Below are positions 24,683 through 28,624 of a stretch of DNA of 28,624 nt, one piece after another. This DNA comes from a virus. The stretch spans positions 1 to 28,624 of the IMG/VR virus record IMGVR_UViG_3300046804_000492. One strand, given 5' to 3'. Position 1 is the first letter of the stretch. Each line of letters begins with the position of its first letter. The notes beneath the pieces were generated by a model. It did not search any database. It was not told the origin of the DNA and saw nothing but the letters and a program-made list of their open reading frames with translations. Both the position numbers and the translations under genes were made by a program.

Positions 24683-25264
24683 TTAGCTATACTCAAAGGG
24701 TGTATCAGGATCACTGTAATCAACATCAATGGTCATACCCTTAACATTGTCATATTCCTGATAGTATGTTTCGTTTGGCATCAATACCCTAAACTGTTCT
24801 CCGTATTTAAGAGTAAGAAAGGTTACATCTGACTTATTCAGTATGTCACAAATAACAAATCCTGTAGCACATCGTCCTAAGATATTCTTAAAAGGGCTGT
24901 GCTTAACTTCATTGTTTTGCAATGCTATATGAATTTCAGTACGAGGTCTAAACATGATACGAGTTATGCCTAGCTTTTGATTGCGTAGACGGAACTTGTC
25001 GTAGATTGTTAGTTCGGTGAGTGTTGCTTCGTTCTGCTCGTTGATAACTACCAACGCATTTTTGAACTTGAGTGAACCTTTTGTGTGTGAATTGTCTGGG
25101 GTCTCTTTTGTACTCCAATGTAGCTGTGCGTCTACATGATTCACATAGTATGTCTCGCCATGAAATTTTAAGACCCACATGGGAATGGTCTCGTCTTGTA
25201 AGTGTGCTTTATTAAAGTGGAAGACTACCTCTTTACATGCGAATTCAATCTATTGTTGTGTCAT
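24683..25264 (-). CDS. Conserved T4-like phage protein with an in-frame UAG at codon 5 (stop-codon recoding)
   Basis: The ATG at 25264-25262 has an excellent ribosome site (AAAGGAG, 7 bases upstream) and a TATAAATA late box. The frame reads M-T-Q-Q-[TAG]-I-E-F-A-C-K-E-V-V-F and then runs open through MWVLKFHGETYY to a TAA at 24683: 193 codons, with the TAG at 25252-25250. The 30 codons between the TAG and the next ATG (25180) contain no stop and look like true protein. The latter ATG lacks a ribosome site and would delete part of a continuous domain. The sequence resembles a conserved protein of T4-like cyanophages and pelagiphages (recalled pattern, not searched). The window's CUA-anticodon tRNA could decode the TAG. 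Two CAA codons precede it, so Gln is a natural guess for the inserted residue. A sequencing or assembly error is the main alternative. Confidence 0.8.
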
Positions 25265-25291
25265 TTTGTTTCTCCTTTATTATGACATTAA

Positions 25292-25581: not shown

Positions 25582-25706
25582 AGAGCCTCGTAATCCTCTT
25601 TACCTACGCCGCATTCAGGGCATTCAAATGTATCGGGAAGTTCATCCCATTTGCCTTCAGTTGCTTCATCGTGAACGTGTCCACATACAATACAAACGTG
25701 ATCCAT
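25578..25706 (-). CDS. Rubredoxin-type iron protein, 42 residues
   Basis: ATG at 25706 overlaps the rubrerythrin TAA (TAATG). The 42 residues contain CIVCG near the start and CPECGVGKEDYE near the end, the two CxxC(G) knuckles of rubredoxin that hold a single Fe(SCys)4 centre. The usual length is about 52, so the loop between the knuckles is shortened (HVHDEATEGKWDELPDTFE between). Rubredoxin is the normal electron donor to rubrerythrin, encoded immediately upstream. Together they would form a small peroxide-reducing system. Confidence 0.88.
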   Translation of the reverse strand: MDHVCIVCGHVHDEATEGKWDELPDTFECPECGVGKEDYEAL

Positions 25707-26155
25707 TATAGTGAGTCCTTTACTTGTTGATATGCTTCTGCATGACGCTTTTCTACTTTTTGTAGTGCGGCGAAACGCTTCTCTGCTTTCTTAAGAACTG
25801 CTTGAAATTGCTCCGCATGTTCTTTAGATTCTTGGATTTGATGTTGCGCTTCTAATTGAGCCTGAACATTACCCTCATGCTCTGCGGCACGATGGAATTC
25901 AGGATACATTGTAGTGAATTCGTAAGTTTCACCTTCGATTGCTTTCTCTAAGCATTCTTTGGTACTTGGCTTACCAATCAACAATTCTAAGTGACCCCAT
26001 GCGTGTAGCAATTCTTGGTCAGCGGTGTGTTCAAAATGTTTTGCAACATCTTCAAAGCCTTCAGCACGTGCAAGTTTCGCAAAGTAGCGATACTTGATGT
26101 GTGCCATGCTTTCACCTGCTAGTGCGCTTTCTAGATTTTTTAGTGTCAACGACAT
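25706..26155 (-). CDS. Rubrerythrin-like diiron protein (no C-terminal rubredoxin domain)
   Basis: 149 residues, four-helix bundle of the ferritin-like class. Helix motifs carry the two diiron ligand sets: GESMAH (E in helix 1), TADQELLHAWGH (ExxH), EGETYEF and YPEFHRAAEHEG, then QESKEHAEQF (ExxH). Rubrerythrins reduce hydrogen peroxide. Here the rubredoxin domain normally fused at the C-terminus is a separate gene that overlaps its stop. ATG at 26155 with AAAGGAAC upstream. It overlaps the 3' end of the preceding gene by 44 bases. Confidence 0.9.
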   Translation of the reverse strand: MSLTLKNLESALAGESMAHIKYRYFAKLARAEGFEDVAKHFEHTADQELLHAWGHLELLIGKPSTKECLEKAIEGETYEFTTMYPEFHRAAEHEGNVQAQLEAQHQIQESKEHAEQFQAVLKKAEKRFAALQKVEKRHAEAYQQVKDSL

Positions 26156-26552
26156 TAGTAGTTCCTTTTAATGATTTAAGTCGGTCGAGTAAAGATTCTG
26201 TCTTAGTGACTTCTTTCACAACCTTCTTGGGTTTTTGGTGCGCTTGATGGGAATCGAACCCACTACGTACTGGTTTAGAATCAGTTGCCCCTGCCTTCGG
26301 GACTTCAAGCGCAATTTCTTTCAAACGAGACACCTCGTGATGTTTTGTAATTATAACATGTTTTACTTCATCGTCAATCTTAATGGGCAAATCAAGATGA
26401 ACTGTGATGAAGGGACCATCAGTCTCATTAAGTTGGTTATCGTTACCAACTGTACCGATGAAGGGTATGCCTTGATAGCGTCCTAAGATTCTATCTCCTA
26501 GGTGGTAGGTTGCTTTATAACTAACTGAGGCAAAATATTCTTCATAGGTCAT
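26112..26552 (-). CDS. Conserved-type phage protein whose frame runs through a tRNA gene
   Basis: 146 residues, ATG at 26552 overlapping the upstream small gene. Residues 1-80 look like a real folded protein (YFASVSYKATYHLGDRILG, IPFIGTVGNDNQL, DGPFITVHLDLPI, VKHVIITKHHEV). Residues about 81-106 are the translation of a tRNA gene on the same strand (26236-26312), and the frame stays open into a Lys-rich tail (KPKKVVKEV to KKSRKRTSR) that overlaps rubrerythrin. The ancestral protein probably ended near the tRNA, and the tail may be a by-product or a genuine extension. Function unknown. Confidence 0.65.
   Translation of the reverse strand: MTYEEYFASVSYKATYHLGDRILGRYQGIPFIGTVGNDNQLNETDGPFITVHLDLPIKIDDEVKHVIITKHHEVSRLKEIALEVPKAGATDSKPVRSGFDSHQAHQKPKKVVKEVTKTESLLDRLKSLKGTTNVVDTKKSRKRTSR
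26236..26312 (-). tRNA. tRNA with CUA anticodon (amber-decoding / suppressor type)
   Basis: 77 bases with encoded CCA. Acceptor stem GCGCTTG/CAAGCGC pairs 7 of 7, A73. T arm GTGGG-TTCGATT-CCCAT (one G.T pair). Anticodon arm ACTGA-TTCTAAA-CCAGT: four pairs plus an A.C mismatch at 31.39; loop U33, anticodon C34-U35-A36, A37. The anticodon CUA pairs with UAG. D arm GTCCC-GAAGGCA-GGGGC keeps the GG pair but has an unusually long stem and A8 rather than U8. Short 5-base variable region (ACGTA), so not a Leu/Ser/Tyr class II tRNA. The amino acid is unknown. It lies within the coding frame of 26112-26552. Confidence 0.88.
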
Positions 26553-28048: not shown

Positions 28049-28204
28049 GAGTTTCTGTTACGAGGTATGTCTTACCCTAGGCAACTCACGCTGCCAATGC
28101 GTAAACGGAATCGTTTGCGTCTATTTTGTTTTCTTCTTTTTACATCGTTGCTGATGTGCTGTCCACTCTGTTACTCTTTGCCCTGTCGAAACCATGGCAG
28201 GCCC
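28048..28204 (-). ncRNA. ssrA: Coding piece of a permuted two-piece tmRNA
   Basis: Starts GGGCCTG (28204-28198), which pairs with CAGGTCC of the acceptor piece, including G3.U70. Then GGTTTCGACAGG, the conserved tRNA-like D-loop substitute of tmRNA. An ACATC/GATGT stem comes before the A-rich resume region AAAATAGAC. The tag frame (28118-28086) reads GCA AAC GAT TCC GTT TAC GCA TTG GCA GCG TGA: ANDSVYALAA, ending in the ALAA degron that ClpXP recognises. A TGAGTT/AACTCA pairing closes the region after the tag. The 3' boundary is approximate. tmRNA rescues ribosomes stalled on broken mRNA and tags the product. Confidence 0.92.
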
Positions 28205-28217
28205 ATCATAAAGAAAC

Positions 28218-28532
28218 TTACTTGACTTTGACAATAGTAACAGTACCATTGTCGTAATCAATTAAATCTACCATACCAGGATAGCGTTGCTTCAATGCAA
28301 TATCAAAACGATTAAATTCTTCAATTGCATTATCGTCATACGCCATTAATGCTTGTGCATCTTCTGGTGTAATATTTAATGAAGCCATGATCCAATCGGC
28401 AGGATTAGGTGCGTCTTGTTCTTCATCTAGACCTTCGTCTTGAATGGAATTCCAAACACTTCTTGTAACTGGTTGCCAATTTAACTTAGCAATCTGTCCC
28501 AAGTATCCCGATGTTAGTTCACTTATCTTCAT
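28218..28532 (-). CDS. Protein gene lying between the two halves of the tmRNA
   Basis: 104 residues from the ATG at 28532, with AAGGAAG ending only four bases earlier and starting one base after the tmRNA acceptor CCA. The sequence MKISELTSGYLGQIAKLNW, the acidic middle (QDEGLDEEQDAPNPADWIM) and the beta-type C-terminus (LIDYDNGTVTIVKVK) look like a genuine protein. The stop TAA lies 13 bases before the coding-piece 5' end. Function unknown. Its mRNA would be released from the tmRNA precursor by processing at both ends. Confidence 0.8.
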   Translation of the reverse strand: MKISELTSGYLGQIAKLNWQPVTRSVWNSIQDEGLDEEQDAPNPADWIMASLNITPEDAQALMAYDDNAIEEFNRFDIALKQRYPGMVDLIDYDNGTVTIVKVK

Positions 28533-28544
28533 CAAACTTCCTTA

Positions 28545-28624
28545 TGGTGGACCTGGCGGGAGTCGAACCCGCGTCCAGAACACTTTTCTCTTTGCTTCAT
28601 ACAGCAATAACTTATATTCTACGT
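28545..28624 (-). ncRNA. ssrA: Acceptor piece of a permuted two-piece tmRNA (partial, runs off the window)
   Basis: Minus strand ends GGACGCGGGTTCGACTCC then CGCCAGGTCCACCA: T-arm GCGGG-TTCGACT-CCCGC, 3' acceptor strand CAGGTCC, A73 and encoded CCA at 28547-28545. This is nearly identical to the bacterial tmRNA 3' end. Upstream, TGCTGT and TGTTCT can pair with ACAGCA and AGAGTA of the coding piece as helix P2. It lies 5' of the coding piece on the same strand, i.e. in permuted order. Its own 5' end lies beyond the window. Confidence 0.92.

Follow-up and report, generated by a model that had tools for sequence, protein, structure and literature searches.

Gene and features at the locus

The window, i.e., the whole stretch of 28,624 nucleotides that was analyzed, contains on its minus strand a reading frame that begins ATG ACA CAA CAA TAG ATT GAA TTC and then stays open up to a TAA ending at position 24683. 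The ATG, the AAAGGAG motif and the early TAG of the original prediction were recovered at exactly the expected coordinates on this strand, and the tRNA with a CUA anticodon that had been placed about 1 kb away lies 972 nt upstream of the ATG. The main elements are the following:

24683..25264, minus strand: UAG-gated gene coding for the FHFNK protein, 193 residues if the UAG is read (from the translation and 77 relatives)
25178..25180, minus strand: internal in-frame ATG, the next one after the UAG
25181..25249, minus strand: 23 codons from the UAG to the internal Met, translated as judged from pN/pS in 51 distinct sequences
25250..25252, minus strand: in-frame UAG at codon 5, next base A, the same in 77/77 relatives
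25262..25264, minus strand: start codon ATG (from the sequence and the relatives)
25272..25278, minus strand: Shine–Dalgarno sequence AAAGGAG, 7-nt spacer to the ATG, also present in relatives
26236..26312, minus strand: tRNA with CUA anticodon, encoded CCA, A73 and G1–C72 (ARAGORN; Rfam RF00005, 42.9 bits)
28086..28606, minus strand: complete permuted (two-piece) tmRNA encoded by the phage, a neighbor of the module (Rfam RF04321, 109.3 bits)

The "Pyl" label that ARAGORN assigns to the tRNA reflects its CTA anticodon only. Many relatives likewise encode permuted tmRNAs, whose tags include ANDEIFALAA. Other minus-strand frames beside the module include a small rubredoxin-like frame recognized by eye (25584-25706), a rubrerythrin/ferritin-like gene (PF02915, 25706-26155) and an open frame of 146 codons (26112-26552), protein-like at both ends, that wholly encloses the tRNA(CUA) gene.

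The gene had been described as conserved and with a recognized body. The 77 relatives bear out its conservation, whereas the family could not be recognized, as the FHFNK protein gave no Pfam or PHROG match above the cut-off and did not match PF01981 (peptidyl-tRNA hydrolase 2, Pth2). A confident all-beta model was predicted for its N-terminal domain (pLDDT 93.8), sequence and fold searches of the PDB returned nothing significant, and no relatives were confirmed in the bacterial genomes searched.

Conservation of the early UAG

IMG/VR was scanned with only the part of the protein that follows the internal Met, which kept the UAG from biasing the search, and this first round yielded 77 loci. All of them have TAG at the same place, preceded by ATG plus one to four in-frame codons and followed by A, and in all of them the frame upstream of the internal Met is open back to the TAG. 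The residues before the TAG vary (MA, MS, MK, MTK, MTQ, MTQQ, MSQQ, MSKQ, and others), so that the leader peptide, whose conservation had been raised as a check, is free to change in both length and sequence while its frame and the position of the stop are kept. None of the 77 relatives starts at the Met at 25180 or carries a sense codon in place of the stop, the two outcomes named beforehand as contrary to readthrough, and a search among close relatives found no sense codon at that position either. Moreover, TAG is never the terminal stop in the 76 relatives whose gene end is present.

The stretch after the TAG had been claimed to be protein-like, and for the 23 codons up to the internal Met this is corroborated by their pattern of variation, which falls mostly at third codon positions (mean pS 0.64, pN 0.084, ratio 0.13; 51 distinct sequences), while the UAG itself never changes across the same alignment. 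Such purifying selection implies that the stretch is translated, by ribosomes that either get past the UAG or initiate directly at it. A start at Met25180 was also considered and rejected, given the coding selection upstream of that residue.

A scan for a Shine–Dalgarno site followed by ATG, an early stop and a long open frame gave 178 matches with TAG versus 16 with TAA and 26 with TGA, nearly all of the 178 belonging to the FHFNK family or to Pth2. This excess, together with the 77/77 conservation, indicates that the early TAG is not due to chance. A second search, using as query the distant member from Rhizobium phage RHph_I1_18, returned 62 FHFNK loci, some of them on first-round contigs; most carry the TAG, while a group of about 11 does not. 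Members without it start directly at that point or have the UAG in an upstream Pth2 gene. Overall, the early UAG occurs in FHFNK and Pth2 relatives from well over a hundred other phages, with the caveat that the loci cannot be treated as independent and that close relatives enter some of the counts. The base after the UAG is a purine in 147 of 149 distinct sequences, and a purine after a stop codon is a leaky context reported to favor suppression.

Pth2 as the leading gene of the operon

In the TAG-less FHFNK members examined, the adjoining upstream gene encodes Pth2, as identified by PF01981 matches of two members of this operon-leading gene (3e-20 and 2e-9). These upstream genes bear an early TAG themselves, e.g., MT-TAG-INNQKLRVV, MTH-TAG-IDNKLRVV, MK-TAG-VNEKLRVV, and MKNM-TAG-IKSNEKLRVV. 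Since FHFNK has lost its own UAG wherever a UAG-bearing Pth2 gene leads, the stop guards the first gene of the operon. A Pth2 profile scan produced 80 loci, 78 of which were inspected; ATG, a few codons and UAG directly before the Pth2 core were detected by script in 77 of them and by eye (MNN-UAG) in the remaining one, L304. Translation cannot begin downstream of the UAG at locus L131, where no Met is near the start of the Pth2 domain and the first internal one falls deep within it. Many Pth2 leaders have no Shine–Dalgarno site, as would be expected for phages of Bacteroidota, an assignment suggested by sequence style. The early TAG is also present in the huge-phage genomes LR756500, LR756501, and LR745206. 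A viral scan with the Pth2 of Sinorhizobium phage Phosso as query gave no confirmed relatives.

The mycobacteriophages Myrna, ScoobyDoobyDoo, Phabba, Cane17, JustHall, and NoodleTree have Pth2 preceded by [A/G]TG-TAG-GTG and followed, a few hundred bases on, by a tRNA(CUA). The GTG following the TAG has the better Shine–Dalgarno spacing, and a start at this codon would fit these cases at least as well as readthrough.

A further frame was observed at L167:5301-5975, where MA-TAG-IEYSSIIDKYIIM leads into a different protein that resembles a homing endonuclease by eye; the FHFNK gene downstream of it has a TAG of its own.

Co-occurrence with a suppressor tRNA

The association with tRNA(CUA) was assessed in distinct loci flanked by 4 kb or more upstream and 2 kb or more downstream, identical neighborhoods being counted once. 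In the FHFNK family, 52 of 68 loci have the tRNA, and among the Pth2 loci 30 of 43 do; in a control phage Pth2 family that lacks early stops, it was found in 2 of 27 (Fisher p 4e-10 and 3e-7, respectively). It is always on the same strand as the gene, at a median distance of 747 bases (FHFNK) or 269 bases (Pth2), and the next commonest anticodon of the FHFNK set occurs in 15 loci. ARAGORN called no tRNA(CUA) in 13 of the 43 well-flanked Pth2 loci, which include a divergent Pth2 group within L351-L370, where the tRNA may be encoded elsewhere or be absent. Several UAG loci lacking the tRNA are contig ends; at L097 it was missed by ARAGORN and seen by eye, and at L191, L195, L202, L206, and L216 uncalled tRNAs gave Rfam matches at pattern hits. 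A73 is present in most of the tRNA(CUA) genes that encode the CCA, which is weak evidence against glutamine as the amino acid inserted. A freshwater-2 RNA motif (Rfam RF02980) lies near the tRNA(CUA) and upstream of the gated gene at L097:5561-5639, minus strand.

Cultured phages and the exchange of stop codon and anticodon

In phage Phosso, MKY-TAG-VEEKLRV precedes Pth2 and lies some 160 bases ahead of the start given in the annotation; the phage also has a tRNA(CUA) annotated as "Undet". In RHph_I1_18, the FHFNK gene is an unannotated frame of 82 residues, MSEFM-TAG-NESCREV..., and the tRNA(CUA) begins about 12 bases after its end. Agrobacterium phage Atu_ph07, a relative of Phosso, instead has TGA in Pth2 (MIGEHF-TGA-INYEELGYE). 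It encodes a tRNA with a UCA anticodon that is missing from the annotation (MF403008 430713-430787; L268:1714-1788), and neither of two pattern searches across the full record turned up a tRNA(CUA) accepted by ARAGORN. Stop codon and suppressor anticodon have changed together, which we regard as the strongest single piece of evidence, albeit one case. A second, ungated Pth2 was noticed at L378, in a record of the same length as that of Atu_ph07.

Use of UAG elsewhere in the genomes

None of the 40 window ORFs of at least 80 amino acids ends in TAG (24 end in TAA and 16 in TGA), and TAG makes up 27% of the stop triplets in the window DNA. No other conserved long ORF of the window was seen to be broken by UAG. 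A 186-kb relative that shares the MTQQ leader uses TAG to end 4 of its 144 ORFs, has FHFNK as its sole early-UAG ORF, and encodes three tRNAs (CUA, Gln, and Glu) as well as a tmRNA. ORFs ending in TAG amount to 10.7% in the control Pth2 phages versus 3.5% in FHFNK loci. Since UAG is rare as a stop and a single early-UAG gene, FHFNK, was seen in the window and in the 186-kb relative, the codon is nearly set aside for FHFNK, and the phage is not one with the general reassignment of UAG known as code 15.

A putative amber lock

The conserved TAG, the selection on the codons behind it, the co-occurrence with tRNA(CUA), and the TGA/UCA exchange all support the earlier proposal that the UAG is translated by means of the phage tRNA, which would be the simplest account of these sequences. 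It is very probable that the phage, while using the standard code, has an operon expressed only via its own suppressor tRNA, an arrangement that can be termed an amber lock. Ribosomes would start at the ATG, make four residues and reach the UAG, where, without help, release factor 1 would terminate translation; once made and charged, the phage tRNA(CUA) would decode the UAG to give the full protein. The lock would sit at the first gene of a small operon, FHFNK in phages like that of the window and Pth2 in others, in which FHFNK follows without a UAG of its own. Expression would accordingly depend on tRNA(CUA), and "switch", the word originally used for such an early UAG, would be a reasonable description.

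Concerning its purpose, Pth2 frees tRNA from peptidyl-tRNA, and Pth2 as well as FHFNK appear to be linked to the rescue of ribosomes or tRNA. Their output could be tied to the level of the suppressor, so that readthrough activity would induce the proteins handling its side effects. This feed-forward link between suppression and rescue is the most likely purpose, while a simple timing device or a mutual dependence of tRNA and operon would fit as well.

Several other explanations have to be weighed against the amber lock. The placement of an early stop, with a purine after it, in a gene from a family acting on peptidyl-tRNA, and the UAG loci without a detected tRNA(CUA) could also suit a termination sensor comparable to that of prfB, in which the leakiness of the UAG, increasing when release factor 1 is short, would set the level of expression and tRNA(CUA) would merely tune it. 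However, the strong co-occurrence with tRNA(CUA), the pairing of UGA with tRNA(UCA), and the avoidance of UAG at other genes point to the suppressor tRNA, making such a sensor unlikely. Alternatively, the UAG could end a mini-ORF, after which ribosomes would re-initiate on the following codon (AUU in many cases) or on a near-cognate start just downstream. AUU does serve, if rarely, as a start codon; AUU, AUC, AUA, or GUN follows the UAG in 130 of 149 distinct sequences, and the well-spaced GUG of the mycobacteriophages agrees with this explanation too. Nevertheless, other members have ACU, ACA, AAC, AGC, CUU, GAA, or AAA at this position (AAC in RHph_I1_18), and re-initiation needs no tRNA(CUA) and leaves the exchange in Atu_ph07 unexplained. 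Re-initiation is disfavored by these non-start codons and is considered quite improbable. A general reassignment of UAG, by which the UAG of the window would be one among many, is in keeping with the presence of tRNA(CUA) and the avoidance of UAG as a stop, and the gated huge phage LR756501, with two tRNA(CUA), may be recoded; yet the intact long ORFs of the window and the lone early-UAG ORF of the 186-kb relative render this explanation very improbable. Finally, sequencing error or gene decay can practically be dismissed, since independent contigs and cultured isolates carry the UAG with conserved coding sequence downstream, and no support for either was found.

Returning to the amber lock, it is probably widespread: diverse standard-code phages of Proteobacteria, likely of Bacteroidota and perhaps of mycobacteria, would set one stop aside as a private codon for their own suppressor tRNA, making the Pth2/FHFNK operon conditional, and stop and anticodon could change together. 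Non-recoding phages can carry suppressor tRNAs to which no purpose has been assigned, and the early stop in one operon offers a concrete candidate target for them. These observations also expose mis-annotated genes, as Pth2 has been called too short in Phosso and Atu_ph07 and the gene of RHph_I1_18 was missed, and they make the regulatory question testable in cultured phages.

Comparison with known systems

The arrangement of an early UAG with a suppressor tRNA was not found described in the open-access literature searched. The conserved stop within an open frame (77/77) and the coding selection behind it are those expected of in-frame readthrough. In bacteria, an early in-frame stop controls prfB, a gene of the translation machinery that codes for RF2. 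However, prfB operates by +1 frameshifting and senses its own product, whereas here the frame of the ATG continues unchanged past the UAG in the 77 first-round relatives, and the gene for a suppressor tRNA lies close by.

Code 15 phages, namely crAss-like, Lak, and other jumbo phages (PMC9523058, PMC13037316), are alike in that a phage tRNA(CUA) makes UAG a sense codon. The window phage shares with them the tRNA(CUA) and the avoidance of UAG as a stop, but their UAG codons are spread over many genes, while here the code is standard and one UAG stands at the start of one operon. Regarding phage Pth2 (PF01981), the operon-leading gene of many relatives matches this family, although the window's own gene is not a Pth2, and the annotated versions leave out the UAG and the leader.

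The suppressor tRNA(CUA) of Stenotrophomonas phage Summit has been reported with its purpose stated as unknown (PMC9022506). Upstream of it, Summit likewise has a leader with a Shine–Dalgarno site and ATG-AAG-UAG, except that the frame closes five codons after the UAG. The same micro-ORF, MK-TAG-VYKPP-TAA, with a strong Shine–Dalgarno site, is found in Summit (L416:2442-2468), DLP_3 (L417:662), and DLP_5 (L418:664), ahead of a small gene that has tRNA(CUA) behind it, and may be the same lock in leader-peptide form. The tRNA of DLP_3, annotated as tRNA-Glu (MT110073 49181-49254; L417:1093-1166), has a CTA anticodon by eye. Lastly, according to Ueda et al. 2002, as cited in PMC3985003, the tmRNA system copes with the readthrough caused by amber suppression; gated phages often encode a tmRNA near tRNA(CUA), a link that consists here of proximity only.
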